NCBI GenBank assembly: GCA_963921795.1 | Contig: OY997653.1 | Coordinates: 8,709,092 to 8,773,091, forward strand | Direction of reading: 5' to 3' | Source: Nannobrachium achirus | Taxonomy: Eukaryota; Chordata; Actinopteri; Myctophiformes; Myctophidae | DNA length: 64,000 nt | Shown here: positions 1 through 40,500 of the stretch, in pieces | How the letters are laid out: the number at the start of each line of letters is the position of its first letter | Position numbering within the stretch: the first letter of the stretch is position 1 | Position numbers and translations under genes: made by a program | The notes under the pieces: model-generated | Databases searched by the model: none | Told to the model about the DNA's origin: nothing | The model's input: the letters and a program-made list of their open reading frames with translations, nothing else

Positions 1-9
1 CTCCCCTCT

Positions 10-205
10 CTATAGAGGGTATGCGCGTGACATCATCATCATACCCGGAAGTTGTGGGAACGCGTATTGAGTGTCAAAAAACTACTTTCTTGCCTTGACA
101 GCCCATACATCCAAACAGAAAAGTCCTGTCTGATTGCATTAAACAACGTTAAACTCACTTTGCCACTCGATTTGTCATTCACTTTATGCATGCGCAGGCC
201 TTTAT
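10..205. mobile_element. MITE fragment, TAGAGGGTATGCG family
   Basis: It starts with tatagagggtatgcg and runs through a body (gacatcatcatcatac, cagcccatacatccaaac, ctttatgcatgcgc) that recurs at 45261-45470, 46289-46712 and, inverted, at 52661-53369. Fuller copies end in the inverted terminus taccctcta. This copy lacks a clear right terminus. It is non-coding and lies upstream of the visible part of connexin A, probably in an intron. Confidence 0.55.
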
Positions 206-217
206 TAAGTTGTTATG

Positions 218-514
218 ATGTATGTTCCTAAGTACAGTTTTAATGTGTTATAATAATCTTAGTTTAATAATGTAGGTTAGTTAAATCAGCACAGGGTTTT
301 ACAGTGTATCTGGTGTGTCCATAAAGCCTGGCAAAGCACAGGAGGAACTGCTCCAAATTAAAATGATGGAAATCACAGTTGTCTGTCCTCGCAAATAAAA
401 ACGTGTAGACTGTATGTCTCTCCACCTGTTTCTATTGGTTCAATAAAGACAAAACTGGGAAAATAATGTAGGTTATAATTGTATAGGTTCCTAAGTACAG
501 CTCTGACATGTTAT
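218..514 (+). repeat. Duplicated 5' edge of the connexin A exon at 1055, two decayed copies
   Basis: The start of the exon at 1055 with its acceptor (tag|gttcctaagtacagc) is repeated at about 486-506 (tataggttcctaagtacagc) and, more decayed, at about 222-238. Each copy is followed by the same intron-like tail (atgttataatgtaataatg or a variant). The unit is about 57 bp. A later hAT-like insertion (515-1017) separates the nearer copy from the functional exon. The copies lack the rest of the exon. Confidence 0.7.
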
Positions 515-1017
515 CAGTGTTGTAAAAAGTACTCACATTTTATACTTAAGTAAAAGTATCAATACAGCAATATAGAAATACTCCGTTACAAGTAAAAGTC
601 CAGAATTCAAAATGTACTTGAGTAAAAGTATGAAAGTATTGGCATCAAAATGTACTTAAAGTGCCAAAAGTAAAAGTACAAAATGTTTGAAAATAGCCGT
701 TCTACAAGCTCACAACGCGTCGCATCGCGACGCGTTGTGAGCTTGTAGATCGGCTATTTTCAAACAGCCAAGGGATAAAATAAGGCTAAAGTGGTTAATA
801 TATGTTTTTTTATGTATGCAATGTATGCAAAGTAACTATAGTAGCTAAGGTTTTCAAAAACATTAGCGAAGTAAAAGTACAATATTTGGATCCGAGATGT
901 AGTGGAGTAGAAGTAAAAGTATTAGAAATTGGTAATACTCAAGTAAAGTACAGATACCTCAAAATTGTACTTAAGTACAGTACTTAAGTAAAAGTACTTA
1001 GTTACTTTACACCACTG
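515..1017. mobile_element. hAT-like MITE with perfect 8-bp target-site duplication
   Basis: Terminal inverted repeats CAGTGTTGTAAAAAGTA and TACTTTACACCACTG are flanked on both sides by catgttat (507-514 and 1018-1025). The body is rich in AAGTAAAAGTA motifs and holds a long hairpin at 689-764 whose arms read agcc...tctacaagctcacaacgcg. An 8-bp duplication and a CAGTG terminus fit hAT transposons. It has no transposase and is non-autonomous. It inserted between two copies of a duplicated exon edge. Confidence 0.85.
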
Positions 1018-1054
1018 CATGTTATAATGTAATAATGTAGGTTATCTTTTGTAG

Positions 1055-1150
1055 GTTCCTAAGTACAGCTCTGACGAGGGGAAGATCAGCCTGAAGGGAC
1101 GTCTGCTGCGTTCCTACGCTCTGCACGTCCTGGCTAAGATCCTACTGGAG
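1055..1150 (+). CDS. Connexin A exon: cytoplasmic loop end and start of TM3
   Basis: This is 96 nt, 32 codons, phase 0 at both ends. The acceptor is tatcttttgtag and the donor is ctggag|gtattta. It encodes [16 protein letters not shown] and then the TM3 start ending KILLE. It matches residues [15 protein letters not shown]... of connexin B, where an intron lies between the two halves of this segment. Both edges of the exon are duplicated nearby. Confidence 0.85.
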
Positions 1151-4100
1151 GTATTTATAGATCTACTATCTGATCTATATACCTACTGAAATAAAAGGGG
1201 AAGACCACCCATTTTCAATATTGAACTATATCATTAATATCCCTTAGAGGAGTTGTGTGGGGAAAAAAAAAAAAAGGTTCCCCCTCTTCTGTGTTGCCTA
1301 GAACTGGAGGATTGATTTTGGGGTTTGCGTTGCAAATCACAATGTGATGACATCACACCGTTGTACTTTACAATGCAAACCCCAAAATCAATCCTCCAGT
1401 TCTAGGCAACACAGAAGTGGGGGAACTTTTTTTTTTATTTCCACACAACTCCTCTAAGGGATATTAATGACATAGTTCAATTTTGAAAAAAGGTGGTCTT
1501 CCCCTTGAACCTACTTTACCACTGATCTATAGATCCTATGGAGGTATCTATAGGTCTACTATCTGATATAGACTATATACGCTCTGCACGTCCTGGCTAA
1601 GATCCTACTGGAGGTAGGCCCACTGGACCACTGAAATCAGTGGTGAATTATAAACATCTCCATGTGACCGCTCCGCTCTATAACAGACCGCTGTCTAATC
1701 AACGGGCTCAGAGCACCTGCTGCACTCAGGCCGCTGCACTGCGTGGATTTAGTGCCGTATCCAACATGTGTCAGCCATGTAAACAAACACATCATTTACA
1801 ACTAAACGTTGCTCTCAAGAATGCTTAAAAAATGTTTGAGGCGAGAAATAGACGACGCAGTATATCAGAAAATGGATTCTGTTTGATCAGCACAGCAAAG
1901 AAATACTTTTTAGCTTTGAGTCAAAGTATACATGTTATTGAGTAGCCGTGTAATAAGCGGGATAACATCTGGCTGCGCGCTCTTTATGGAGAAATAAAGC
2001 CTGAAGGGACTTTATTTCTCGATAACGACCGCGCAGCCGGATGTTATCCCTTACATATGATTATAATAATATTTGATATAATGTTTAAGGTAGGATTCAT
2101 CACAGGACAGTGTATTATAATATTATAATAGGATATGCTTATTACAGGTAGGATTCATGGTAGGACAGTACTATTATAATATTATAATATGTTTATAACA
2201 GTTAGGCTTCATCGTAGGACAGTACTATTATAATATTATAATATGTTTACAGATAGGATTCATCGTAGGACAGTACTATTATAATATTATAATATGTTTA
2301 TAACAGGTAGGATTCATCGTAGGACAATAATATTATATTATAATATGTTTATAACAGGTAGGATTCATCATAGGACAGTACTATTATAATATTATAATAT
2401 GTTTATTACAGGTAGGATTCATCGTAGGACATTACTATTATAATATTATAATATGTTTATTACAGGTAGGATTCATCGTAGGACAGTACTATTATAATAT
2501 TATAATATGTTTACAGATAGGATTCATCGTAGGACAGTACTATTATAATATTATAATATGTTTATAACAGGTAGGATTCATCGTAGGACAATAATATTAT
2601 ATTATAATATGTTTATAACAGGTAGGATTCATCGTAGGACAGTACTATTATAATATTATAATATGTTTATAACAGGTAGGATTCATGGTAGGACAGTACT
2701 ATTATAATATTATAATATGTTTATTACAGGTAGGATTCATCGTAGGACAGTACTATTATAATATTATAATATGTTTATTACAGGTAGGATTCATCGTAGG
2801 ACAGTACTATTATAATATTATAATATGTTTATTACAGGTAGAATTCATCGTAGGACAGTACTATTATAATATTATAATATGTTTATTACAGGTAGGATTC
2901 ATCGTAGGACAGTACTATTATAATATTATAATATGTTTATTACAGGTAGGATTCATCGTAGGACAGTACTATTATAATATGTTTATTACAGGTAGGATTC
3001 ATCGTAGGACAGTACTATTATAATATTATAATATGTTTATTACAGGTAGGATTCATCGTAGGACAGTACTATTATAATATGTTTATTACAGGTAGGATTC
3101 ATCGTAGGACAGTACTATTATAATATTATAATATGTTTATAACAGGTAGGATCCATCGTAGGACAGTACTATAATATTATAATATATTTATAACAGGTAG
3201 GATTCATCGTAGGACAGTACTATTATAATATTATAATATGTTTATAACAGGTAGGATTCATCGTAGGACAATAATATTATATTATAATATGTTTATAACA
3301 GGTAGGATTCATCGTAGGACAGTACTATTATAATATGTTTATTACAGGTAGGATTCATCGTAGGACAGTGCTATTATACTATTATAATATGTTTATAACA
3401 GGTAGGATCCATCGTAGGACAGTACTATAATATTATAATATTATAATATATTTATAACAGGTAGGATTCATCGTAGGACAGTACTATTATAATATTATAA
3501 TATGTTTATAACAGGTAGGATTCATCGTAGGACAATAATATTATATTATAATATGTTTATAACAGGTAGGATTCATCGTAGGACAGTACTATTATAATAT
3601 GTTTATTACAGGTAGGATTCATCGTAGGACAGTGCTATTATACTATTATAATATGTTTATAACAGGTAGGATCCATCGTAGGACAGTACTATAATATTAT
3701 AATATTATAATATGTTTACAGGTAGGATTCATCGTAGGACAGTACTATAATATTATAATATATTTATAACAGGTAGGATTCATCGTAGGACAGTACTATA
3801 ATATTATAATATTATAATATATTTATAACAGGTAGGATTCATCGTAGGACAGTACTATAATATTATAATATTATAATATATTTATAACAGGTAGGATTCA
3901 TCGTAGGACAGTACTATAATATTATAATATTATAATATATTTATAACAGGTAGGATTCATCGTAGGACAGTACTATAATATTATAATATTATAATATATT
4001 TATAACAGGTAGGATTCATTGTAGGACAGTACTATTATAATATTATAATATATTTATAACAGGTAGGATTCATCGTAGGTCAGTACTATAATATTATAAT

Positions 4101-7100
4101 ATTATAATATATTTATAACAGGTAGGATTCATCGTAGGACAGTACTATAATATTATAATATTATAATATATTTATAACAGGTAGGATTCATCGTAGGACA
4201 GTACTATAATATTATAATATTATAATATATTTATAACAGGTAGGATTCATTGTAGGACAGTACTATTATAATATTATAATATATTTATAACAGGTAGGAT
4301 TCATCGTAGGTCAGTACTATAATATTATAATATTATAATATATTTATAACAGGTAGGATTCATCGTAGGACAGTACTATAATATTATAATATTATAATAT
4401 ATTTATAACAGGTAGGATTCATCGTAGGACAGTACTATAATATTATAATATTATAATATATTTATAACAGGTAGGATTCATTGTAGGACAGTACTATTAT
4501 AATATTATAATATATTTATAACAGGTAGGATTCATCGTAGGACAGTACTATAATATTATAATATTATAATATATTTATAACAGGTAGGATTCATCGTAGG
4601 ACAGTACTATAATATTATAATATTATAATATATTTATAACAGGTAGGATTCATCGTAGGACAGTACTATTATAATATTATAATATATTTATAACAGGTAG
4701 GATTCATCGTAGGACAGTACTATTATAATATTATAATATATTTATAACAGGTAGGATTCATCGTAGGACAGTACTATTATAATATTATAATATATTTATA
4801 ACAGGTAGGATTCATCGTAGGACAGTACTATAATATTATAATATATTTATAACAGGTAGGATTCATCGTAGGACAGTACTATAATATTATAATATATTTA
4901 TAACAGGTAGGATTCATCGTAGGACAGTACTATTATAATATTATAATATATTTATAACAGGTAGGATTCATCGTAGGACAGTACTATAATATTATAATAT
5001 ATTTATTACAGGTAGGATTCATCGTAGGACAGTACTATAATATTATAATATTATAATATATTTATAACAGGTAGGATTCATCGTAGGACAGTACTATAAT
5101 ATTATAATATATTTATAACAGGTAGGATTCATCGTAGGACAGTACTATTATAATATTATAATATATTTATAACAGGTAGGATTCATCGTAGGACAGTACT
5201 ATAATATTATAATATATTTATAACAGGTAGGATTCATCGTAGGACAGTACTATAATATTATAATATATTTATAACAGGTAGGATTCATCGTAGGACAGTA
5301 CTATTATAATATTATAATATATTTATAACAGGTAGGATTCATCGTAGGACAGTACTATAATATTATAATATATTTATAACAGGTAGGATTCATCGTAGGA
5401 CAGTACTATTATAATATTATAATATGTTTATAACAGGTAGGATTCATCGTAGGACAGTACTATTATAATATTATAATATGTTTATAACAGGTAGGATTCA
5501 TCGTAGGACAGTACTATTATAATATTATAATATATTTATAACAGGTAGGATTCATCGTAGGACAGTACTATTATAATATTATAATATATTTATAACAGGT
5601 AGGATTCATCGTAGGACAGTACTATAATATTATAATATTATAATATATTTATAACAGGTAGGATTCATCGTAGGACAGTACTATAATATTATAATATTAT
5701 AATATATTTATAACAGGTAGGATTCATCGTAGGACAGTACTATAATATTATAATATTATAATATGTTTATAACAGGTAGGATTCATCGTAGGACAGTACT
5801 ATAATATTATAATATATAATATATTTATAACAGGTAGGATTCATCGTAGGACAGTACTTGCTGTTTGGATTCACCCTCCAACATCGCTACATCTGTGACC
5901 ACTCCCCCTGTCCTCACCAGGTGGACTGTTTCCTGTCCAGGTGGGTACACTTCCTGTCCAGGTGGGTACACTTCCTGTCTGGGTGGGTACACTTCCTGTC
6001 TGGGTGGGTACACTTCCTGTCTGGGTGGGTACACTTCCTGTCTGGGTGGGTACACTAAATGACTGATCAAATTACATGAATTACACATATTTAAATGATT
6101 GATCACACGATTACATTAATTACACATATTTCAAATCAAGGACATTTACTCTATGATTCTAGTTAGTTTTAGTACAGTTTATAGATACAGTACAGTTTCA
6201 TTTGGTCATAGTTTTTTGTTAAGCCATTTTATTTATTTATATTTTTTAACTCTAATAACACTAATTGTGCTTTCAGAACTACAGAGAAGTCAGGTTCTAA
6301 TGACATTGTGTCTTAAAACCTACAGAGAAGTCAGTGTTCATCTGGTTGTAATGACATTGTGTTCCCAGGCCTACAGAGCATCGCAGTTGAAGCTCCACCC
6401 CGTCCTCACTCTGGTGTCGGAAGCGTTTTCCGCATTCATTTCTTCCATAGACATTTCATAAAGTATTTATTTAAACGTTTTTAAGCCTTGGACAAAGCCA
6501 CCTCGGCTGGAGAGGGATCATGTTAATATTCACATTTTTTTGAATGCAAAGATTAATTAGAAAGCTGAAAAAAAGGGCAGGGTACAAGACTGTGTACATC
6601 ATTATTTTTAAAATTGCGGAAACTACACTCCCAGAATGCCTTGCGAATGTTGTTGTTGTTTCCTGAAATAAAGCCCTTAAATCACGCTCAGTTTAGTTAT
6701 CCAGGCCAGCATATGGCCTGAAATGTAGTGATTGTCATCTCTTATCGTCATCCTTAACATAGTGCATCATATTTGTAAAAGAAAGACGATCGCTCAAGGA
6801 GTTCTGCTGACGTGCAATAATCCGCCGGGAAGACAGGGGGCAGTAGCTACTTCCGCGGTAACCGCAAGATACATGAAAGAAGAAGAAGCTAGACCAATCA
6901 CAGACGTCGATTTCACCGGATGTACATGTTTAGCAGTATGGGAAATGCAGTTCTTCTCCGTGCGATCTTGATTAAAACGTGTTTTTACTAAAACGTGCAA
7001 TAATCCGCCGGGAAGACAGGGGGCAGTAGCTACTTCCGCGGTAACCGCAAGATACATGAAAGAAGAAGAAGCTAGACCAATCACAGACGTCGATTTCACC

Positions 7101-8661
7101 GGATGTACATGTTTAGCAGTATGGGAAATGCAGTTCTTCTCCGTGCGATCTTGATTAAAACGTGTTTTTACTAAAACTAGAGTGATTGCATACATACTCG
7201 GGGGTTCTACAGGAGCATATAGAACCATTTTACAACCACCAGCCTAGTGGTAAGTGTACATTGAATTGCTACGACTTTGTGGCTGATAATGAAAAACGCT
7301 ATGGTGAAAATGAATGGGTTGTTTACTTCCGACACCGCACTGCGATGCTCTACAGAGAACGGTGTTCATCTGGTTGTAATGTTATTCTCAGGTGTTCATC
7401 TGGTTCTAATGTGTTCTCAGGCCTACAGAGAAGTCAGTGTTCATCTGGTTCATGCTGGTGGCAGCGGGTGTGTCTCTCCTCCTCAGCGGGGCGGAGCTCT
7501 GCTACCTCAGTGTGCGCGCCGTCAGGCTCTGCTCCGCCCAGAGACAGGTAAGGTGCGTCCCCATAAGTCACATCTGCCCATGAGAGATCGTGGTGCATCT
7601 TGGGAATGGGCTTATTGTGTCTAAAAAGACATATTTAGTCAATTATTTAGCAATGCACTTGCATGCATGCATGCCCCCAACCTGGGGGTTAAGGAAGGCC
7701 CTCTTACATCTAACAACTTTGAAAAGATTTTGGAAATATTTGGAACAATTTCTAAAAGACTACCCTCTCACACTATGGGGCTTTTAAGCCGTGACATCAT
7801 TTTGTAGTCAGACCTCCAAGCAGATTTATTATCAATATCTGTCCCTCGCTATTTCAACAGATCCGAGACAAAAATAAAGACTAAAGTATAATTCTACCAC
7901 TTTCCTTTCAACAACAAAGAGAAGAAACATTTGTAAATAGTCAAAATAGTAAAAAGATTTACGGGCACTGGGTACTTTTGGCCCCAAAAGTTCTCCTCTG
8001 CCTACAAAATGATGTCAGATTTAACAGCCCCATAAGATTTGAAAAAGACTTTCCAAAGACTTTAAAAGATTTCAGTTGTTAGATGTGAGATGCCTCTAAA
8101 GATTCTATAATGACTGGTTCAAGATGTCCTTTTATTTTCTGAAATAGGCCTATTATAGCCATGTGTTCTATTCCTCTGAATAGGTGAAATAAAGGGCTGT
8201 CGTAGCCGTACCAACAGGCTGTCGGACCACTATACCTCACACTTAACGATTGAGTAACGCCGCGACTCGTCTTGATTTTATTACGACTGAGAAATCTTTT
8301 CAGAGTTGTGAGGTGTAAGGCTAGCTTTAGAATCACTACAATTATAGAAAGCAATAAATTAAAACATTTTAACTCTCATCTTTTCTTTTCTCTAATTACA
8401 ATCTAAAATATGAACCCTTGTTGTAAAAACAATGTTTTTCCCCTCCCCCAACAGGACTACACGGTGACCCCGGTGACCCCGCCCCTCCAGGACAGGCTCC
8501 GCCCCTTCCAGGACAGGGACCATAAGTTCCAGAACTGGATCAACCTGGAGATGGACCTGCAGCGCTACCACGCCGGGGTCAAAGGTCAGCCGGAGGTCAG
8601 GGGTCAGCCGGAGGAGAAGAGCGTCCACTGGGAGAGCACCGGGGGGGAGGTGCATATCTGA
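1055..8661 (+). CDS. Connexin A (gap-junction protein), 3' half, four exons
   Basis: Four exons join in frame: 1055-1150, 5834-5940, 7421-7547 and 8455-8661. All are bounded by AG/GT and together encode 178 residues and a stop. The product is the C-terminal part of a connexin, a four-pass membrane subunit of gap-junction hemichannels. Visible in order: end of the cytoplasmic loop ([10 protein letters not shown]), TM3 (KILLE then [13 protein letters not shown]), E2 with [12 protein letters not shown] (C-x4-C-x5-C, the alpha-connexin spacing), [15 protein letters not shown] leading into TM4, then a tail ending GGEVHI. The N-terminus, TM1, E1 and TM2 must lie left of the window. Splitting E2/TM4 between exons at SR|PTEK and TM3 at LLE|VGF is unlike connexin B in this window. 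Subfamily Cx32.2/Cx32.7-like is a guess. No broken frame was seen, so it may be functional despite its odd introns. Confidence 0.85.
1194..1507. repeat. Long inverted repeat (foldback MITE) in connexin A intron
   Basis: The left arm (aaggggaagaccaccc, then tattaatatcccttagagga, then aatcaatcctccagttctag in the other orientation) pairs with a right arm ending ggtggtcttccccttg. Each arm is about 130 bases around a short centre (cacaatgtgatgacatcaca). It is non-coding. It separates the exon end at 1150 from decayed copies of that exon end at 1527-1614. Confidence 0.75.
1527..1614 (+). pseudogene. Duplicated 3' edge of the connexin A exon (exon fossil)
   Basis: The last 35 bases of the exon ending at 1150 recur at 1579-1613 (acgctctgcacgtcctgg... 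to ctactggag) and are followed by gtaggcc. A shorter decayed copy of exon end plus donor (gatcctatggaggtat) lies at about 1529-1544. No AG precedes the 1579 copy, so it is unlikely to be spliced as an exon. It could act as a competing donor only if included some other way. Confidence 0.75.
1625..2085. repeat. Intronic interspersed sequence with a 20-bp-arm hairpin
   Basis: From 1969 to 2050 the arms gggataacatctggctgcgc and gcgcagccggatgttatccc form a hairpin around an inner stem made of agaaataaag and ctttatttct. The stretch 1640-1960 reads like an old interspersed repeat. No exon features or connexin similarity were seen. Confidence 0.5.
2086..5833 (+). repeat. Minisatellite of about 65-70 units built from the TM3-exon splice acceptor
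   Basis: The array is nearly 3.75 kb with units of about 45-59 bp. Most units read gtaggattcatcgtaggaca, then gtactat, then (TATAAT)-rich filler, then tttataacag or tttattacag. The first part equals the first eight codons (VGFIVGQY) of the connexin A exon at 5834, and the ending is its splice acceptor. The last unit runs without a break into that exon. Early units (2.1-3.7 kb) are mostly 54 bp with tatgttta. Later ones are often 59 bp with tatattta and carry an in-frame TAA. The unit count is array length divided by mean unit length, not an exact tally. Confidence 0.95.
5834..5940 (+). CDS. Connexin A exon: TM3 and second extracellular loop
   Basis: This is 107 nt, starting phase 0 and ending with two bases of an Arg codon. 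It encodes [20 protein letters not shown] and then [16 protein letters not shown], the canonical connexin E2 with three cysteines spaced C-x4-C-x5-C. The acceptor tataacag is the last of dozens of near-identical acceptors in the upstream array. The donor is ctgtccag|gtgggtac, itself the first unit of a 21-bp tandem repeat. Confidence 0.85.
5926..6056 (+). repeat. 21-bp tandem repeat carrying the exon donor, about six copies
   Basis: The unit is ttcctgtccaggtgggtaca plus c. It is the last codons of the E2 exon (FLSR) plus the donor gtgggt. The first two copies keep AG|GTGGGT. Later copies read ctgtctgggtgggt, so the AG is lost. Because 21 is a multiple of three, using the second donor (after 5961) would insert seven residues (WVHFLSR) without a frameshift. 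Confidence 0.85.
6278..6385 (+). repeat. Duplicated 5' edge of the connexin A TM4 exon, intronic copies
   Basis: Three imperfect copies of the start of the exon at 7421 (gcctacagagaagtcagtgt, then tcatctggtt) are followed by taatgacattgtgt and a cag or similar. They lie at about 6278, 6318 and 6368. The unit is about 51 bp. The third copy keeps cccag|gcctacagag but then diverges. These are non-functional fragments. Confidence 0.7.
6386..6810. other. Intronic sequence without recognised features
   Basis: This lies between exon-edge fragments and the 183-bp tandem duplication. Only generic AT-rich sequence was seen. The short text aaactacactcccagaatgc at about 6620 resembles a common vertebrate interspersed motif. 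No exon is supported. Confidence 0.4.
6811..7176. repeat. Perfect-looking 183-bp tandem duplication
   Basis: Two adjacent copies, 6811-6993 and 6994-7176, begin cgtgcaataatccgccggga and end ctaaaa. I could find no difference between them by eye, so the duplication is recent or homogenised. The period is 61 codons, which keeps a minus-strand frame open across both copies, but nothing marks that frame as a gene. Confidence 0.9.
7345..7420 (+). repeat. Duplicated TM4-exon edge next to the real exon
   Basis: Two decayed copies of the exon start lie directly before it: one at 7352 (tacagagaacggtgttcatc) and one at 7393 (tgttcatctggttctaatgt), each ending near a ctcag. The last ctcag at 7416-7420 is the acceptor of the functional exon. 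Confidence 0.7.
7421..7547 (+). CDS. Connexin A exon: PTEK motif and TM4
   Basis: This is 127 nt. Its first base completes the Arg codon begun in the previous exon, giving [20 protein letters not shown], the conserved connexin motif at the E2/TM4 boundary, followed by [11 protein letters not shown] (TM4) and the start of the tail ([13 protein letters not shown]). The acceptor is gttctcag and the donor cag|gtaagg is near consensus. Confidence 0.85.
7548..8454. other. Last connexin A intron with interspersed repeats
   Basis: The stretch 7562-7680 (tgcatcttgggaatgggc, aaaatacatattta-like) has a relative at about 32790-32880 in connexin B. The bases before the next exon (acaatctaaaatatgaaccc) recur at 37770 and, inverted, at 32575. 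It therefore holds copies of a dispersed element rather than coding sequence. Confidence 0.5.
8455..8661 (+). CDS. Connexin A last exon: cytoplasmic tail
   Basis: This is 207 nt in phase 0, beginning after ccccaacag and ending at TGA (8659-8661). It encodes a 68-residue hydrophilic tail starting [15 protein letters not shown], with an internal repeat ([12 protein letters not shown]). Connexin tails vary greatly, so it cannot be confirmed by motif. Support comes from frame, acceptor and position. Confidence 0.75.
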   Translation, partial: DYTVTPVTPPLQDRLRPFQDRDHKFQNWINLEMDLQRYHAGVKGQPEVRGQPEEKSVHWESTGGEVHI

Positions 8662-8739
8662 GGTCAAAGGCCAAACGTTTAACCATCAAATGTTGTTTAT
8701 TGATCAAACATTGCATATTATGTTATGCTTTAATATAAA

Positions 8740-8745
8740 AATAAA
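8740..8745 (+). promoter_or_regulatory. Possible polyadenylation signal of connexin A
   Basis: An AATAAA lies about 80 bases after the stop codon in an AT-rich run. It is the first such hexamer downstream of the last exon. Confidence 0.4.
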
Positions 8746-8799
8746 AATTAAAAAACTTAGTGCAAAATTTGAATATATCTATTTTTAAAGAGAACATTT

Positions 8800-9030
8800 C
8801 TAACTCAAATATTTGCTTCTGGGTGGTCCCTGGAACTGGGGGCTCCGTGGCCAAATACATGTAATTTTGGGGGTCCTTGACATGAAAAAGTTTGAGAACC
8901 CCTGATTTAGAATCTGGTCAAAAATATTCAAAGACTTGCAGAAATGTTCTTGTTCTGATTTTTCAAAAAAAGAAAATGCATAATTACAAGCTCATAGCTT
9001 GTATATCTGCTATTTTTTCAATAGATAAAT
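8800..9030. mobile_element. hAT-like repeat relic (gggtggtccctgg family)
   Basis: The text cttctgggtggtccctggaa ... ggggtccttgacatgaaaaa ... tttgagaacccctg recurs at 22790-22895 and 48660-48770. The end resembles the TIR of non-autonomous hAT elements. A hairpin with tacaagctcat and gcttgtatatctgctatt follows at about 8985-9022. Confidence 0.5.
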
Positions 9031-28379: not shown

Positions 28380-28515
28380 ATGGGGGACTGGGGCTTCCTG
28401 TCGTCTCTGCTGGACAAGGTCCAGTCTCACTCCACCGTCATCGGCAAGATCTGGATGAGCGTTCTGTTCCTGTTCCGCATCATGGTGCTGGGGGCCGGCG
28501 CCGAGAGCGTCTGGG
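28380..28515 (+). CDS. Connexin B coding exon 1: N-terminus and TM1
   Basis: This is 136 nt from ATG to the first base of the Gly-46 codon. The donor is ctggg|gtgagt. The start is chosen because MGDWxFL is the universal connexin N-terminus and the acceptor lies just upstream (28355-28365). Confidence 0.9.
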
Positions 28516-31500
28516 GTGAGTTACTGTACACTGAATTCTGTGTCCAGGCCTGGAATTTCATCATTTTAGGGGCAAGGCCACTTGGTCTTTGGTGTTGTCC
28601 ATTATTTGAGGGCACAAAGGCCAAATGCCATGGCAGTCGATTGAAATACTTTGTTGAATTTAAGGGTTAGGGATGATATATAGATAAATAGATACAGTAA
28701 AATAGATAAATGATGGTATTTACAATCTGATCCATGCTCAGCCCTGCAACGATCAAACTCACTGGATTGGTCTAAAGATGGGGACTCGGGGGAGTTAAGA
28801 TTTCAGAATCTCAACAAAAGACACTGGTGTCTACATGACAAGAAAGAGACACTGGTGTCTACATGACAAGAAAGAGACACGGGTGTCCGGTGTCTACTGT
28901 CTACATATTGACCAGAAAGAGACAGAGCAGAAAGTGGTACAGTCAGCTGGGACATTAAGGCCACTGTGGCCTCAGGTCATGCCATTGGGCCAAACTGAGG
29001 GGCAACGACGGCCATGGCCTTCATGGCCTCCATGAAATTCCTGCCCTCTTTGCGTGTGAGGTCCGTTACACGGAATTCTGTGTCTATTAGACCAGTGGTT
29101 CTCAACCTTTTCAGGCCGCGACCCCCAAAATAATCACATTTGTACTGGGGACCCCTCACCCGACACCCCACCCTGCACAAGCACTTCGAATTGTTGGAGA
29201 TGCATTACATTTAGTTTGACTCGATCTATTCCATTGTGAAAATAGCCGATCTTCCATCTCACAACACATCAGTGCATACAAGGACAGGTGCGTAGGAAGA
29301 TTAGAGTTCCCACAATATGTCTTCACTCGCAAAGCTTTGTATTGAATACAGATCAACCCAACCTTCAGTGTATTCAGGCCCCCCCAAGATCATCATTGTT
29401 TGAACTGGGCCCCCCACCCTGTCAAGCACTTGGAGTTGAGGCATTACATTTAGTTTGACTCTGTTCCACAGATAACATTGTCACCCTGAGGTCGCAAGTC
29501 ACCCCGAGGTGTCTTACTAGTATGTCTGTAAAAAGTGTCCTCTCCCGATCATGAATGCAGTTTTCCCTATGGTGAAAGAAATGCAAATGCCCTCTTTCCA
29601 CGCCATACCTGAAGGCAGCATTCAAGATAATTGACTCGTCCAAATTCTCCTGAACTTGAATGCAGCATCTTATGTTGAAAGAATTGCCCTCTCTGTGTAG
29701 ACTAAACCATGCTGTACGTAGGCCTACACCAGGGATGGGAATTGATAAGATTTTAACGATTCCGATTACATTTTCAATTCTGCTTATCTATTCTCATGGG
29801 GAAAGGGTGGGAGGGGGAGGAGAAAGACACACACTGTCTTCGTTTACACAAGTTGTTTAGAGCAGTGGTTCTAAAATAGCAGATCTACATGCTCACAACA
29901 CCTCACAACGCCTCGCGTTGTAGATGTAGATCTGCTATGTTCACAATGTTCGCCTCTTGCTTACTTAATATTTAACAGTTTGGCCAGTCCTGTCGAATAT
30001 TCGACTATTTGAATACTTTGAGGTCGAATAATTAGAATACTAAAAATCACTATTCGTGAATGTCCTATAATAGGTATAGCTTTTCAGAGCGATTTTGAAG
30101 GGGGTTAGGGTTTTACACTCCTTTAAGGCTTGCGGTAGGGCGTTCCACATGTTAGTGGTATAGCAGGAGAATGAGTTTGAGTCAAATCTAGGTTGATTGA
30201 ACATGATTTGTGGCGCTGCCTCTGGTGTTGTGATCGTGGACATCCTTGACATCCGATTCTATAAATGTCTTCAAAATCCTTCTAAGGTTTTTTTGAAAAA
30301 TGCATGTTTGAGCACCACTGACAAAGAAAATGCACTGTCAGTGGTGCTCAAACCTTTTTCATGTCAAGGACCCCCAAAATGATATGTATTTGGCCTCAGA
30401 CCCCCATCTCAAAATATTTAGTTCCAGGGACCCCCCAGAAGCAAAATGTGAGTTACAAATGTTCGCTTTAAAAAAATACATTATATTCAAAGAATAAAAT
30501 TCAAATTCAAATTTGGAGAGGGGAGAGGGCACTTTTTACACACATACTGTATAAAAGGGCCTGGGCTCAAGTCCCCTTTGATGTCTATGTGTGCACGTGC
30601 CTGATAACAAAATGCAAGTGTAGGCAACCTTAGGCACGGGTGCCATCATTGGCACAGGGGAGGGTGATCACTGGAACACTGGCAGAAGTGTGAGAGAGAG
30701 GATTTATATTTTAAAATCCAATGTTGTTTTAAACGTGGTCAATTACATTAAGTCACCCAGTTTGCAGCAAATGACATCCTGCACATAATTCTACATTCAT
30801 TAAAATTCTGAACTCTGACTGGGGAGAGAGTCGGGGAGATAGGTGGGTTATTGCCCCGAGTCTAATGATCATTATAACAATGTCCTGACAAGCAAAATAT
30901 GTCAGCATGTTGATGTGGTGTTGTTAAAGTGAATGTTGACATGGCACACCGACTATCTAGAAAACAAAAACATGGCACTTCATTTCAAAAAGGTTGCTGA
31001 CCCCTGCAATAGAGGGTATGCGTATGCTGGTCTGGGATCACTTCACTTTTCGGGCTTGTAACCGGTCTGGAGCAGAAACCACAACACGTCATGTTGTAGT
31101 ACTCAAAGGACTACAATTTGCCGGAAAGATCAAACCGGATTCAGTTATAACCCAAAATATTCCCCTGCACTCAAGGACATACTTTTAGGGTCTAGCTAAT
31201 AAACTCCTTGATGCGGAGTAGTTTTGCTTTTGAAAAAATCGTTTGGGATTTGCATCTTTTAGTCCAACTGTTAGCGACTGGCAAGACTACACTAGTCTAC
31301 TCGAGCATTTTAATAGGGATTGGGGAAACAAACGGGGGGGAACCAAATCAAAGTGACGCCGCTTCTTCTAGTGGTTTCCGCGCTTTAGGCGGAAACCAAA
31401 CGGCCTGTTGTGAACGAACACCAGGCTTTCCCCCAGAAAGCCTGGTAGGCGAGGTTATGCGTATGCATAAGGTGACTGGCAAATCGAGTGGCAAAGTGAG

Positions 31501-34500
31501 AACATTAGTGAGAACATTAGTTCTATACCAATCAGACAATTGAAACACCCGTGTTGGTCCTCAACATGGCCGTTTAGGACTACAAATGCAACCATGAATA
31601 CGATGTCTAATTGTGAAGCGTTGTCATTGGTCCTCAGGTGACGAGCAGGGCAATTTCATCTGCAACACGCAGCAGCCCGGTTGTGAGAACGTGTGCTACG
31701 ACCACACCTTCCCCATCTCCCACATCCGCTTCTGGGTGCTGCAGATCATCTTCGTGTCCACGCCCACCCTGCTGTACCTGGGACACGTCATGCACGTCAC
31801 GCACAAGGAGAACAAGCTGAGGGAGCAGCTGGCCAGCCCGGCGCCCCCCGGAGGCGGGAGTACCATAAAGCGGCCCAAGTACACCGACGAGAAGGGCAAG
31901 GTCAGTCGGTGATGGAGAAAAAAAGTACTCACGTTTTGGTTTTAGTCGAGTAAAAGTGTCAACACTGTAGACGCTTTTGATGAAGTCCAGTGGGACCGAA
32001 ATGTCTGTCAATTCAAAAGACTAAGACTAAATCTACAGTAAGTCTAAGACTAATGGCTGTAAAAAATAACACTGGTATGCATGCATGCATGCATGCTTTC
32101 ATTATCCCCCATGGCAGTGGCAAAGGGTGTGATATAGCCTTTACAATTTAAGCATTTCGCCGACACTCTTAATCCAGAGCGACTTTCAACAAGTAAGAAA
32201 ATACAGCAATACATCAACGTCATCAATACATCAAATGCACAGCAATATCAATCTAAGAAGAACATAGCTAGACCAAGCAACTATTCAATAAAAAAAAGAA
32301 CAGATAAAAATACTATCTGAAAACATGCATAGTATGGGAAGTTAAAAGTTACTGTGCACCACTGTTCCAACTACAAAGTGGCAAATCCTGGACATTCATG
32401 CCACAGTGGCCCAGACACTGTCCAGGAGGAAGACAAATCAAATAAGACAAGATTTCAGTCCATTGAAAGAATGAATTGAATTTAAGGGATAACCCTAAGC
32501 CTAACCATAACCATAACTGGTTATGCAGTAAACAAAGTTACTGGATTGCTTTAAAGGACAACTTTGTTTTTTTTACAACAAGGGTTCATATTTTAGATTG
32601 TAATTAGAAAAAAGAAAAAGTGAGTGTTAAAATGTTTTCATTTACTTCGTTCTATCGTTTTAGCATGTTTAGCGTGCTATAACGTGGGGGCATGTGTACG
32701 CATGGGGGCATGTGTACAAGTGTCTAAATATATGTCTTTTTAGACACAATAAGCCTGCAATTTCTTTATTGCTATTTACAGTAACCCCAGAAGTCATATC
32801 TGCCCATGAAAGATTGCGGTGCATCTTGGGAATGGGCAAAAATGTGTAAAAATACATATTTAGCCACTTGTACGCATGCCACCAGCCACTGAAATCAAAA
32901 TAATTAAAATCTCTAAAACGATAGGAAGGAGTAAATAAAAACATTTTAACTCTTATCTTTTATATTCTTTAATTGTGGGCTCGCCTATAAGGCGAGCACA
33001 CTTTAGATATTGTCATTATTGTGGGCTCGCCTATAGGCGAGCACACTTTAGTTATTGTGGGCTCGCCTATAGGCGAGCACACTTTAGTTATTGTGGGCTC
33101 GCCTAAAGGCGAGCACACTTTAGTTATTGTCATTATTTATTTATTTCTATACTAGATCAAGTAGACCAAAAACTTCGGTTCCGTTCTACTCCTACATACT
33201 TAGTGAGAAAATGAAAATAAAAACATCAATGTGTTCAGTTTACAGTGGCGAAGTGTGCTATTATTTTCTATAGCAATCGGCCAAATGGTGGCGCTGTAGG
33301 AAGCCTTCGAAAGTGCGATCTTTGAACAGGTATAGCTCATGCTGTGTTTGAGGTCCAGCCATGAAACCTGTATACACTTATGCGTCTCCTCATGCCGAAC
33401 AACTTTTACCCTCTAACTTTTGACCTCTGACCTTTAGGTCTCCCACAATTCGGAATAATATGAAAAACAGTAAAAATCTATCTCCTCCTGGGTTTCTTTC
33501 GTTACGCGCACAAAACTTTTTTCACATGAACTTTGGACCTATACGGTCAAACTGTCTTCGCGGATTTCTTTTAAAGTGAAATATAATTTTTTAATAATTC
33601 AATCAATATTGCGGTTTTATGTAAATTATTCTTCGGCCTCTAAATCATACATGCAAAGTTACACGTTCATGGCATTTGGCAAAGATGTGGAGGGTTAGTC
33701 AAAGTATCACTGAAACCAATTTTATTCCAATCGGCCAAAGGGGGGCGCTATACGAAGCGTTTGAAAATTCAAACTTCAAACGGGCATAAGTCATGACTCG
33801 TTTCGTTTGAAGACATGCAACTTGTTACACGCATGCTTTGAATCAAGCGGAAGACATCTGTGTCGTTGTTAAGTAAGCTCCGCCCTTCGATTTTCCACCA
33901 TTTTGAGCAGTTTGTAAAACGCGTAAACCCGCTTTTATTCTGGAATTTTCGCGTCACATGCACAAAACTTTTTTTACGTGAACTTTGGACCAATATCTAA
34001 AAATCTGTCAGATCGGATTTCTTTAAAATTTAAACATGCTTTTTTAAATAATTCAATGAATATTGCAGTTTTATGCAAATTATTCTTCTGCCTCTAAATC
34101 ATACATGCAAAGTAACATGTTCATGGCATTTGGCAAAGATGTAGAGTGTTAGTCCAAATATCACTAAAACCAATCTTACCCCAATTGGCCAAATGGGGGC
34201 GCTATATCATTTTGAGCAGTTTGTGAAACGCTTAAACCCGTTAGGATTTTTTTTGCAATTTGCATGATACATTCTACACACAATCTAAGGACCTTTATCT
34301 AATATGCCTATGAAGTGCGCACACACAACAAAAAAATAATAATAAATATAGCTGGAAGCAGCGATAAAGTGGCCAAAGCCAAAAACACCTCAAATCATGA
34401 ACACAGCCTGCAATGTGCATGAAATCTTGCAAGCACATTCCCAATAGGTCAAGGAACAAATACCACCCTTCTCGCATTGGCCTGTTATAGCGCCACCAGC

Positions 34501-37500
34501 GGGTCAACTTTTGTACAACACATTTTTGGAACAATATGGACCAATCTTTGACGTCAGTAACGTCAAAGAGAGCACTGCCTGCGATCTTGACATTTTGTAC
34601 TTTTATAGCCATTGTTTTCTGGCTTGAAGCGAGCCCACAATTGTTTCGAAGGAACAATATTTTCTAGTTGTCATTATTTCTATACTATACTATACTATAC
34701 TATACTAGAGCAAGTTCTCCTTCAAACTTCGGTTTCCTATAACTCCTACATACGTAGTGAGAAAATGAAAATAAAAACATCAATGTGTTCAGTTTACTGT
34801 GGCGAAGTGTGCTATTACTTTTTACAGCAATCGGCCAAATGGTGGCGCTGTAGGAAGCCTTCGAAAGTGCGATCTTTGAACAGGTATAGCTCATGCTGTG
34901 TTATACATACAGCCATGAGACCTGTATACACTTATGCGTCTCCTCATGCCGAACAACTTTTACCCTCTAACTTTTGACCTCTGACCTTTAGGTCTCCCAC
35001 AATTCTGAATAATATGAAAAACAGTAAAAATCTATCTCCTCCTGGGTTTTTTTCGTTACGCGCACGAAACCTTTTTCACATGAACTTTGGACCAATACGG
35101 TCAAACTGTCTGGTCAGATTTATTTTAAAGTGAAATATAAATTTTTAATAATTCAATCAATATTGCGGTTTTCTGCAAATTATTCTTCGGCCTCTAAATC
35201 ATACATGCAAAGTTACACGTTCATGGCATTTGGCAAAGATGTGGAGGGTTAGTCAAAGTATCACTGAAACCAATTTTATTCCAATCGGCCAAAGGGGGGC
35301 GCTATACGAAGCGTTTGAAAATTCAAACTTCAAACGGGCATAAGTCATGACTCGTTTCGTTTGAAGACATGCAACTTGTTACACGCGTGCTTTGACTCGA
35401 GCGGAAGACATCTGTGTCGTTGTTAAGTAAGCTCCGCCCTTCGATTTTCCGCCATTTTGAGCAGTTTGTAAAACGCGTAAACCCGCTTTTATTCTGGAAT
35501 TTTCGCTCCACGTGCACAAAACTTTTTTTACGTGAACTTTGGACCGATATCTAAAGATCTGTCGGATCGGATTTCTTTAAAATTGAAACATGCTTTTTTA
35601 AATAAATTCAATGAATATTGCAGTTTTATGCAAATTATTCTTCTGCCTCTAAATCATACATGCAAAGTAACATGTTCATGGCATTTGGCAAAGATGTAGA
35701 GTGTTAGTCCAAATATCACTAAAACCAATCTTACCCCAATTGGCCAAAGGGGGGCGCTATATCATTTTGAGCAGTTTGTGAAACGCTTAAACCCGTTAGG
35801 ATTTTTTTTGCAATTTGCATGAAACATTCTACACACAATCTAAGGACCTTTATCTAATATGCCTATGAAGTGCATACACACAAAAAAAATAAAAATAATA
35901 ATGAATATAGCTGCAAGCAGCGATAAAGTGGCCAAAGCCAAAAACACCTCAAATCATGAACACAGCCTGCAATGTGCGTGAAATCTTGCAAGTACATTCC
36001 CAATAGGTCAAGGAACAGATACCACCCTTCTTACATTGGCCTGTTATAGCGCCACCAGCGGGTCAACTTTTCCACAACACATTTTTGGAACAATATGGAC
36101 CGATCTTTGACGTCGGTAACGTCAAAGAGAGCACTGCCTGCGATCTTGACATTTTGTACTTTTATAGCGATTGTTTTCTGGCTTGAAGCGAGCCCACAAT
36201 TGTTTCGAAGGAACAATATTTTCTAGTTTATCTATCAGGCAGGCAGTCATATCAAGTTCTCCTCAAAACTTCGGTTCCTTTCTACTCCTACATACTTAGT
36301 GAGAAAATGAAAATAAAAACATCAATGTGTTCAGTTTACAGTGGCGAAGTGTGCTATTATTTTTTATAGCAATCGGCCAAATGGTGGCGCTGTAGGAAGC
36401 CTTCGAAAGTGCGATCTTTGAACAGGTATAGCTCATGCTGTGTTATACATACAGCCATGAAACCTGTATACACTTATGCGTCTCCTCATGCCGAACAACT
36501 TTTACCCTCTAACTTTTGACCTCTGACCTTTAGGTCTCCCACAATTCGGAATTATATGAAAAACAGTAAAAATCTATCTCCTCCTGGGTTTTTTTCGTTA
36601 CGCGCACGAAACTTTTTTCACATGAACTTTGGACCAATACGGTCAAACTGTCTGGTCGGATTTCTTTTAAAGTGAAATATATTTCTTTAATAATTTAATC
36701 AATATTGCGGTTTTATGCAAATTATTCTTCGGCCTCTAAATCATACATGCAAAGTTACACGTTCATGGCATTTGGCAAAGATGTGGAGGGTTAGTCAAAG
36801 TATCACTGAAACCAATTTTATTCCAATCGGCCAAAGGGGGGCGCTATACGAAGCGTTTGAAAATTCAAACTTCAAACGGGCATAAGTCATGACTCGTTTC
36901 GTTTGAAGACATGCAACTTGTTACACGCGTGCTTTGACTCGAGCGGAAGACATCTGTGTCGTTGTTAAGTAAGCTCCGCCCTTTGATTTTCCGCCATTTT
37001 GAGCAGTTTGTAAAACGCGTAAACCCGCTTTTATTCTGGAATTTTCGCTCCACGTGCACAAAACTTTTTTTACGTGAACTTTGGACCGATATCTAAAGAT
37101 CTGTCAGATCGGATTTCTTTCAAATTGAAACATGCTTTTTTAAATAAATTCAATTAATATTGCAGTTTTATGCAAATTATTCTTCTGCCTCTAAATCATA
37201 CATGCAAAGTAACATGTTCATGGCATTTGGCAAAGATGTAGAGTGTTAGTCCAAATATCACTAAAACCAATCTTACCCCAATTGGCCAAAGGGGGGCGCT
37301 ATATCATTTTGAGCAGTTTGTGAAACGCTTAAACCCGTTAGGATTTATTTTTGCAATTTGCATGAAACATTCTACACACAATCTAAGGACCTTTATCTAA
37401 TATGCTTATGAAGTGCACACACACAAAAAATAATAATAATAATGAATATAGCTGCAAGCAGCGATAAAGTTGCCAAAGCCAAAAACACCTCAAATCATGA

Positions 37501-40500
37501 ACACAGCCTGCAATTTAGGTGAAATCTTGCAAGCACATTCCCAATAGGTCAAGGAACAGATACCACCCTTCTTACATTGGCCTGTTATAGCGCCACCAGC
37601 GGGTCAACTTTTGCACAACACATTTTTGGAACAAAATGGACCAATCTTTGACGTCAGTAACGTCAAAGAGAGCACTGCCTGCGATCTTGACATTTTGTAC
37701 TTTTATAGCCATTGTTTTCTGGCTTGAAGCGAGCCCACAATTGTTTCGAAGGAACAATATTTTTCTAGTTACAATCTAAAATATGAACCCTTGTTTAAAA
37801 AAAAAAAAAAGTTGTCCTTTCAAAGATGGGGGAGTTAAGAATTCAGAATCTCAACAAAAGACAAGTTATCTACATGACAAGAAAGAGACACTGGTGTCTT
37901 CATATTGACCAGAAAGAGACAGAGGAGAAATTGGGTTAGGGTCATCTTGCCTGGCTCCAGCCAATAGACCCGCCCACTCTCTGAGTGGACTGCTTCTCTT
38001 GGTCTGGAATTGGCATATGATGCGCCTCTTTCTATGGCAAACCAACCAATGAAATCAATGCAAGACGGAGGAGGGGGTGGGTCTAACTTTTGAAAATCAA
38101 CAGAAACAGTGGAGGGAGGGGTGGCTCACCAGAGCTCTTAATTGCTCCCTTTGAACTTCAAAGGGTTTCTGAACTGCAGTAATTGATTGAGCCACACAAG
38201 TGTCAATAGCTCGTTAGTGCTTCTCTCTAATCAATGAAACATCAAAGACAATGACTTGTTTGATGCCAGTCATACAGGGGAGGGGGAGGGGGGAATGTTT
38301 TGTGTACACAAGTCAAACACAACCCCTCCCACCAGATCTCTTGTGATTGGGAATTTCAAATTTTAAATCCCCTCCCCTTTGAAATCTCTTGTCAATGGGA
38401 CAATGTCAGACTCAAGATCCAGCGCAGAGTCTGAAATCAGGCTAATCAGATCATCTGGGGCATTAAGGCCACTGTAGCCTCAGGTCATGCCAATTGGTTT
38501 GAGGGGCACAAGGCCAAACTGAGGGGCAACGACGGCCTTCATGAAATTCCTGACCTGGGTGCCCCACAGCTGCAGCACTACAAACAGACATACTGTGACT
38601 CTGATCATCACAACAATCATAAAGTGCAACCGCTCTCTTGTCGCTGACCTCTGCAGGTGAAGATCAAAGGCAGCCTGCTGTGGAGCTACCTGATGCAGCT
38701 GCTGGTGAAGATCATCATCGAGGCGGCCTTCATCGTGGGCCAGTACTACCTGTACGGCTTCGTCATGGTGCCCATGTTCCCCTGCTCCCGCAAGCCCTGC
38801 CCCTTCACCGTGGAGTGCTACATGTCCCGGCCCACCGAGAAGACCATCTTCATCATCTTCATGCTGGTCGTGGCCTGCGTCTCCCTGGTGCTCAACGTGG
38901 TGGAGATCTTCTACCTGCTCTGCTCCAGGTAATGATAATAATACCAGTAAGACTCCCTAATTAGCCCTATTCACGGCCCGCCCACTCAGCATCCCCCTGG
39001 TGCTGAAGTCATGTTTTGAAGGGTAAAATCCTGCTAAAAGCCCATAGAGTTAACACAGAAATCGCAAATTTAATGCAGTTTCCGAATAGTAAAGTATAAA
39101 ATACGGCTAGCATGATCAAGAACACAAGATAGTAAATGGCACAAAGCATTATAATTTACTTTCCCGCTCGAAATAATGATTTGTTGGCTTTAAGTCCAGC
39201 TATTTCTGTATTAATTTCCCCTTCTAAACTGACGTCAGCACCAGGAATTTGCTGAGAAATTTGCTGAGTGGGCGGGCCGTGAATAGGGCTAATCGGGAGA
39301 TAAGCGACCGTCAGGTCGCAAGTAAAAATAGGCCTGATGGTGGCGCTAAATTGTATAGATCCTTGTTGATGACACGACTCTAGACAAACTGTGTACCGCT
39401 TTGCGTGATTTTCGGGCAAAATCTGTAGTGGCAGTGTCCAAAAATGTGTTTGAAAAAAATCACCCTGATGGTGGCGCTAGATGGGACAGATGCATTTTGA
39501 TGACATGACAGTAGATATATGTACCGGTTTGCGTGATTTTAGGGCAAAATCTGTGGGAGCAGTGTCCGAAAATGTGTCTTGCAAGAATCGGCCTCATGGT
39601 GGCGCTAGAGGAGGGCCATGTGAGAAATTAGTGGGGGTTGTGGTTTGGCAGCCAAGGAGTGTGTGTGCAAAGTTTGGCATGGATAGGGGCAACGGTGGCG
39701 GAGATATGAGTAGGGGAAAAGTGTGACGTATAAGTAACTGCGACCCAACGGTTGCAATGAAGGATATGATGATGTGTAGGATAGAAGACCACATTTTCAT
39801 CATCTTCATGCTGGTCGTGGCCTGCGTTTCCCTGCTGCTCAACGTGGTGGAGATCTTCTACCGGCTCTGCTCAAGGGCAGAAACCTCGAAAATCTCCATT
39901 TTTCACGTTTGTACGTTTTTTTATCACCAAGTAAAAGCCCTGCTTCATCATACGAGGCTGTCGCACAAAAGTAGTGAAAACAGACAATCTACAAGGCGTT
40001 GTGTGCTTGTAGATCTGCTATTTTCACTAGTTTAGTTCATTTTTAAAACGATAAATACAAAATGAAAGGGCAATCCCAGATGACAAAAAAAATAAAATCA
40101 GGAGGGCCTCTTTTTTATATCTAACAAAAAAGAAAGAAAGAAAATTAAAATTGCATCAAAACTAATCAACAAATTAAAAACTGTTCAAACATTGGCCAAA
40201 TTGTCAAATAGCAGAAGCAAAAGGTTCAGTTCAGTTTGGTTTATTGGACAGAAATGCATGTCTGTGTAATGTACAACAGGGCCTGCTAATCTCTAATGAT
40301 CCATGGTCCAGTAGTCATAATGAAGTGTCTCAGAGGAACCAGGAGCCTAGAGCCTCTTCTGTGGACACTGTGTGTTTACAGCACACTCTAGGACAGGGGT
40401 TTTCAAACGTTTTGACTCAGGGCACCCCTGTAAATAACTTTTTCCATCCACGGCACCCCTGAGTAAAGCCCTTTGCACACAGACACGTTTTTCTCGCAAG

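Follow-up and report, generated by a model that had tools for sequence, protein, structure and literature searches.

A gja11-like connexin gene and its minisatellite

The stretch of DNA analysed here (the window; 64,000 nucleotides, C16:8709092-8773091) belongs to a genome of the fish Nannobrachium achirus (1.66 Gb, 564 contigs). Near its start, on the forward strand, lies a split connexin gene, gene A, one intron of which is largely a minisatellite that spans the border with the following exon. The coding sequence is divided among seven exons, of which three lie upstream of the window, and forms an open frame of 322 codons, compared with 318 codons in a paralogue, gene B. The exon borders, taken from the open frames in A and B, place coding exon a at 1055-1150 (100% amino-acid identity with paralogue B), functional exon b at 5834-5940, exon c at 7421-7547 and the last coding exon, d, at 8455-8661. 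Exon b encodes the third transmembrane segment (TM3) and the cysteine-bearing second extracellular loop, exon c encodes TM4, and exon d encodes the C-terminal tail and supplies the stop codon. The product carries a connexin domain (PF00029, E 3e-95) and matches connexins whose structure is known, Cx46 among them. Among the matches listed (120 of 3668), the best full-coverage relatives are 63-67% identical and mostly named gja11, Cx34.5 or Cx32.7; the eight lowest E-values among them belong to longer proteins of 395-564 residues, 49-59% identical, some named Cx32.2 or Cx32.3. From these protein matches we call the gene gja11-like.

The intron between exons a and b (intron a/b; 1151-5833) is 4683 bp long, and the array takes up 3744 bp of it. 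Tandem Repeats Finder (TRF), applied to the window, reported a repeat at 2088-5858 with a period of 54, 69.5 copies, 91% matches and a score of 5572. A unit-by-unit parse resolved this repeat into 69 units of 46-59 bp at 2090-5833, the last of which joins exon b without a gap. Each unit opens with a head, GTAGGATTCATCGTAGGACAGTAC, that repeats the 24 initial bases of exon b (VGFIVGQY) with few mismatches, and closes with a tail of ~30 bases that repeats the end of intron a/b; the joints between units are nearly all AG|GT. Three tail types occur in array A, TTATAACAG (n = 52), TTATTACAG (n = 14) and TGTTTACAG (n = 3), and 25 of the 69 unit sequences are distinct. The initial annotation had described a minisatellite of dozens of copies of a connexin splice acceptor plus the first codons of its exon at 2086-5940, running without a break into the functional exon; the parse bears this out, and the 70 joints that we count, the functional one included, fall within the 65-70 acceptors proposed there. 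It had also placed in-frame stop codons in most units beyond about 3.7 kb, and we find one in 36 of the 38 units from position 3700 onward, in 17 of the 31 upstream of that position, and in 53 of the 69 overall.

Genome-wide string counts, which are lower bounds, gave 71 matches to a 27-base core of the unit, CAGGTAGGATTCATCGTAGGACAGTAC, all within array A or the array of paralogue B, compared with 0 matches to the core read backwards in the same search, indicating that the repetition of the core is not due to chance. Seeding of the array by a dispersed repeat was considered and rejected: the AT-rich part of the unit (33 bases, up to 3 mismatches) also had 71 matches, all inside the two arrays, and the origin of the array thus looks local, as far as lower-bound counts that skip simple repeats go. 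RNA hairpins in the AT-rich part were likewise rejected, with two single units and one dimer folding no better than most of their shuffles (z 0.78, 0.12 and -1.58).

Paralogue B and the history of the array

Paralogue B lies 370 kb away on the same contig and in the same orientation. Its array has 30 units, 9 of them distinct, and its exon X, the exon preceding exon a, lacks four residues relative to A. The collinear non-coding flanks of the two genes are ~91-99% identical. Across the coding sequence, 13 of 318 codons differ, with 2 amino-acid changes (nonsynonymous divergence, dN, 0.0027; synonymous divergence, dS, 0.053; dN/dS ~0.05); assuming 75% nonsynonymous sites, P is 1.1e-5 for 2 amino-acid changes among 13 codon differences. 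By this comparison both gene copies are intact and under purifying selection, although part of the constraint signal could be an effect of gene conversion between the two copies. We also searched for further genes containing exon b, and rejected this possibility when the start of the exon, with up to 3 mismatches allowed, was found in 2 places only.

These data bear on the concern, raised with the initial annotation, that the array might be an assembly artefact or a relic in a dead gene. A and B might conceivably represent two haplotypes retained in one contig; however, they are separated by 370 kb, and their units follow a different order between flanks of high identity. A dead gene is opposed by coding exons that are open in both copies, all seven of them, and constrained. 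The paralogue and the reading frames answer the concern in part, and we consider artefact or dead gene hardly credible.

The two arrays resemble each other at their upstream edge. The first unit of array A (2090-2147), a divergent unit of 58 bp, matches the first unit of array B at 55 of 58 bases (identity 0.95, versus 0.71-0.84 to B units 2-6), and the two fifth units share one type (identity 1.0). Because units 1 and 5 are common to A and B, the array probably stood before the gene duplication and then grew separately in the two copies. What tells against a fuller correspondence is unit 2 of array A, whose identity to B unit 2 (0.94) does not exceed that to B units 3 and 6 (0.96 each), so that a unit-by-unit alignment of the arrays rests on units 1 and 5. 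Further in, five unit types are common to the two arrays, no common run of exact types exceeds two units, and each array has a private multi-unit block present twice (BBHK in A, AAAAADCLB in B). A stable edge with a changing interior is the outcome of unequal exchange, and growth of the array may have proceeded by unequal exchange or slippage. The bases directly before the array resemble the unit tail (scores of 15-22 versus shuffle means of 6-9, with 2 to 21 of 300 shuffles reaching the observed score), consistent with the intron having originally ended there.

Splice joints and readings of the array in splicing

All 70 joints in A are preceded by AG (CAG in 69, AAG in 1), and 67 of the 70 are followed by GT, the units without GT starting at 2202, 2253 and 2517. 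Counted by unit, 66 of the 69 in A begin with GT and 69 of 69 end with AG; the corresponding counts in B are 30 of 30 and 29 of 30. Except for the few that have lost GT or AG, each unit is a GT...AG mini-intron and simultaneously an AG|unit|GT mini-exon. The initial annotation was right to read the units as acceptors, but that description was incomplete given that 66 of 69 also begin with GT, and it overlooked repeats at the other borders of the gene (see below). Donor strength was scored with a weight matrix that does not derive from N. achirus. On that scale CAG|GTAGGA, at 8.43 bits, lies in the top 1.2% of the 966 GT sites outside the array (window 1-9000 plus 10 kb upstream), and, judged by sequence and score, the joints have the YAG|GT form of recursive splice sites together with a usable donor. 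Exon a's own donor, GAG|GTATTT, scores 4.52 bits; joining exon a to a usual unit creates GAG|GTAGGA, which scores 7.39 bits and hence outscores it, suggesting that choice of an early acceptor need not close the route to exon b. Whatever stretch from a GT to a later AG is excised, whole units are left, and every complete route would excise whole units only and yield an identical mRNA.

A straight read-through from an early acceptor meets a stop codon before the end of exon b in all 69 cases in A and all 30 in B. The expectation in the initial annotation that an earlier acceptor would normally lead to truncation therefore stands for straight use of that acceptor, and is softened by the possibility of re-splicing, since all but three joints are AG|GT. 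The same read-through counts would suit a dampener or switch, in which frequent use of early acceptors gives stop-carrying products that enter nonsense-mediated decay and the copy number, 69 versus 30, tunes output. The layout also fits the switch model of recursive-splicing exons (RS-exons), as set out in the accessible text of PMC5126111; a clear signal of selection on copy number or joints was, however, not seen, and we think such a function improbable. Units might instead serve as cassette exons that add 17-18 in-frame residues to TM3, given that inclusion of a single unit keeps the frame open, being both free of stops and a multiple of three, for 11 of the 69 units in A and 16 of the 30 in B. 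Set against this, 53 of the 69 A units carry a stop, and an additional hydrophobic stretch within TM3 of a four-helix channel subunit is unlikely to be useful; we give the cassette reading very little credence. Even taken jointly, dampener, cassette use and artefact appear unlikely.

The array has the sequence layout by which mirage minisatellites are defined, that is, a tandem repeat that spans an exon-intron border and has many AG/GT units. Mirages have been described in amphioxus in Adh3, the globins BflGb6 and BflGb9, TnC and PGBD5, and both borders can be affected (accessible text of PMC3087553 and PMC3902484). Their units, like those here, contain AG/GT signals; in amphioxus the length differs between haplotypes, with BflGb6 having 6 and 3 units of 150-160 bp in two haplotypes and Adh3 having units of 10-72 bp (PMC3087553; PMC3902484, same portions). 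Unlike these, the present case is in a fish, has 69 and 30 units of 46-59 bp with AG|GT at 67 of 70 joints, and belongs to a gene with five of its borders repeated. A second relative is found in human segmentally duplicated genes, where internal tandem repeats at exon-intron boundaries also vary in number between recent paralogues; RNA data tie those repeats to new introns and to alternative splicing, whereas the fish paralogues keep the same border and are known from DNA (PMC2812944, in the part accessible). The remark in the initial annotation that no vertebrate gene of this arrangement had been described is thus preceded by the human boundary repeats (PMC2812944) and, outside vertebrates, by the amphioxus mirages (PMC3087553), as far as the accessible text of these reports goes. 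We found no border-spanning minisatellite from a teleost among the papers listed from the openly licensed PMC literature, judged by titles and the openings of abstracts; within the literature searched, the scale, the nearly all-AG|GT layout, the pair of paralogues and the fish host look new.

How the gene is spliced across the array admits of two readings that we weigh seriously. In one, the array is inert: exon definition leads to a direct junction of exon a with exon b, the 69 early joints go unused, and the AG|GT motif is a copied codon border, GAG|GTA. The amphioxus mirages seem to be regularly spliced, according to the reverse transcription-PCR reported in the accessible text of PMC3087553, the unit acceptors here are weak, and a strong donor, that of exon b (GTGGGT, 9.92 bits), follows at 107 bases after the last acceptor only. 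Weighing on the other side, local sequence hardly distinguishes the last acceptor, whose final 9 bases are identical to those of 52 of the 69 units, and the inner units, for which a donor likewise follows after 46-59 bases, thus resemble small exons. We regard an inert array as a genuine possibility, though not the one that we would choose.

We lean instead, with some reserve, towards a border-spanning, mirage-type minisatellite that is a tolerated passenger, with the last acceptor selected by exon definition and some re-splicing. The array would have no selected task and would be tolerated because splicing copes with it. The regular splicing suggested for the amphioxus mirages speaks for this reading too. 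The last acceptor would be reached because only there do an exon of ordinary length and a strong donor follow. Where an early acceptor is taken, the resulting GAG|GTAGGA joint could be re-spliced toward the last acceptor, as a form of repair.

Several observations weigh against this reading. The exon junction complex represses re-splicing at joints of this kind. GT has been lost in 3 units of A and AG in one unit of B. The pyrimidine tracts of the unit acceptors are poor (0.45-0.55, compared with 0.55 for exons X and a and 0.65-0.80 for the other exons). The branch motif YNYTRAY occurs near 0 of the 11 acceptors examined; a scan for it consequently does not discriminate among them, and we rejected the branch point as the deciding signal. 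Mismatches in the unit heads are rarer at the joint (5 of 414 cells in columns 1-6 versus 26 of 1242 in columns 7-24 in A; 0 of 180 versus 13 of 540 in B), which is the direction expected if the joints were maintained, but the units are not independent of one another. Finally, AG|GT arises from the codons GAG|GTA, and hence needs no selection in the units.

A stronger version of re-splicing would have the spliceosome step along the array as a working ladder, with up to 67 recursive splice sites as its rungs and the number of units setting the amount of surviving mRNA. Its first step would give exon a a stronger donor than its own. Like recursive splice sites, the units have a YAG|GT joint, and a second donor follows 46-59 bases on, as in an RS-exon that carries a stop codon (PMC5126111, accessible text). 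Unlike the recursive sites of long vertebrate introns, they lie in a 4.7-kb intron, are near-identical and repeated, lack clear conservation and are known from DNA. Recursive splicing is associated with very long host introns, and at 4683 bp intron a/b is not one of them. The array may work like a recursive splice site, and we do not class it as one; the full ladder seems to us a long shot. If true, it would be a satellite built of recursive splice sites, of which we found no description in the openly licensed literature searched, and a natural copy-number series for splice-site choice. Seventy near-identical acceptors with one correct choice, in a constrained vertebrate gene, form a natural experiment on acceptor choice with little local help, and paralogues with 69 and 30 units supply a built-in dose comparison.

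Repeated borders and apparent intron gain in the connexin family

Direct repeats are found not only at the array but at four further splice borders of the gene, namely the acceptors of exons a and c and the donors of exons a and b. The acceptor border of exon a, comprising the intron end and the first exon bases, has a copy at 462-507 (91.3% to 1031-1075, E 1.8e-8) and a degenerate copy at 219-237 (94.7% to 1050-1068, E 0.067). The 3' end of exon a recurs together with its donor at 1578-1616 (100% to 1115-1153), and a third, degenerate copy of this donor border is found at 1531-1567 (92.1% to 1137-1174). The end of exon b and its donor are contained in a 21-bp repeat with 6 copies at 5930-6056 (TRF score 226), of which we count 4 copies in paralogue B by eye. 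Degenerate copies of the exon c acceptor border occupy 6293-6378 (6319-6347, 100% to 7422-7450; 6358-6378, 95% to 7410-7430), with further copies at 7362-7421 (TRF 7361-7421, period 30; 6334-6353 matches both 7362-7381 and 7392-7411). In all, 5 of the 12 borders are in repeats versus a mean of 1.8 expected, a value reached by 496 of 12614 rotations and 2344 of 100000 random placements (P ~0.02-0.04) in a test that used a 19-base cut and E up to 0.1, included dispersed repeats in the background and counted the array by construction. The enrichment of repeats at the borders of this gene is modest and, at this level, suggestive. Two other repeats occur in the same introns: between the exon a donor copies is a 312-bp inverted repeat (1195-1506; 89.6% self-complementary), probably a foldback element, and intron b/c has a perfect 183-bp tandem duplication (6810-7177; 2 copies, 100% identity).

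We compared the intron positions with those of other connexins in the genome. At nine connexin loci the match to the query starts at residue 1-3 and continues to ~240 within a single open frame, so that introns are absent at these positions; other loci are split. GAG|GT is present at the intron site in 3 of the 4 intronless loci inspected. On contig C15, the intron of five connexin copies sits at this GAG|GT position and is made up of an element of 412-413 bases between GGTGACG(A/T) flanks, with two extra bases on its 5' side; the element is also matched at full or near-full length across many further contigs (2836 candidates at first look, of which 40 were scored). In L014, another gene of C15, the site holds a different element, with ends TAGGGGTGGGCGATATGG and duplication GGTGACGT. 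In both, the acceptor AG is formed by the last A of the element and the first G of the duplication. Altogether, L013, L014 and L023-L027 (C15, ~56.487-56.571 Mb) have introns at GAG|GT made of a hAT-like element plus its target duplication, two elements having used one site. We take the elements to be of the hAT type from the 8-base duplication and TAGGG ends. The C15 introns look like introner-type intron gain in a vertebrate; the accessible text of PMC9860276 contains the whole words 'vertebrate' and 'hat' 0 times.

Like introners, the introns of the C15 sister connexins of gene A at the same GAG|GT are transposon copies with a ~8-base target duplication, but no such element is seen in intron a/b; a transposon origin for this intron was rejected on inspection by eye, which found no convincing target duplication or matching ends. 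The intron between exons E1 and X (L009, window -5476 to -3816; L011:777-1648) may also be a transposon insertion: in B its ends are TAGGGGTGTAACC...GGTTACACCCCTA, and it is flanked by a duplication of GCAGCAGG that lies in a CAG-rich stretch. Intron gain by tandem duplication at AGGT is said to have been proposed by Rogers and by Gao and Lynch. Intron X/a (L009, -3725 to window 1054), the neighbour of intron a/b, fits this route, as its opening sequence (GTTCCTA..AGTAC.GCTCT) copies the start of exon a; its donor, GTTCCT, is very weak (1.0 bit). The exon a donor, GTATTT, is unlike the start of exon b, and the copy of the exon a end at 1613 is followed by GTAGG, as exon b begins. Unlike the product of such a gain, the array unit is an intron tail plus an exon head, indicating that the array grew inside a pre-existing intron. 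Together, these comparisons suggest more than one route of intron gain in the connexin family; the array occupies one intron at such a site. This setting suggests ongoing intron turnover, with transposons on C15, tandem duplication at intron X/a, and one intron that is now largely minisatellite.

Further connexin sequences were noted, partly with the help of a tblastn table that left out genes A and B. A second split connexin in the window, perhaps gja12 or gja13, has exons at 28380-28520, 31637-31828 and 38654-38917; part of its TM4 exon recurs as a 77-bp copy (96%) at 39796-39872, and one of its introns holds three tandem copies (96-97%) of a ~1.5-kb unit at 33188-37763. At another locus, L020, a 36-bp copy (89%; 2762-2797 and 3306-3341) probably includes the exon end of another split connexin and is a possible border duplication. 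A third connexin reading frame in the window, at 61872-62729, is a single open frame with an unusual spacing of the second-loop cysteines.

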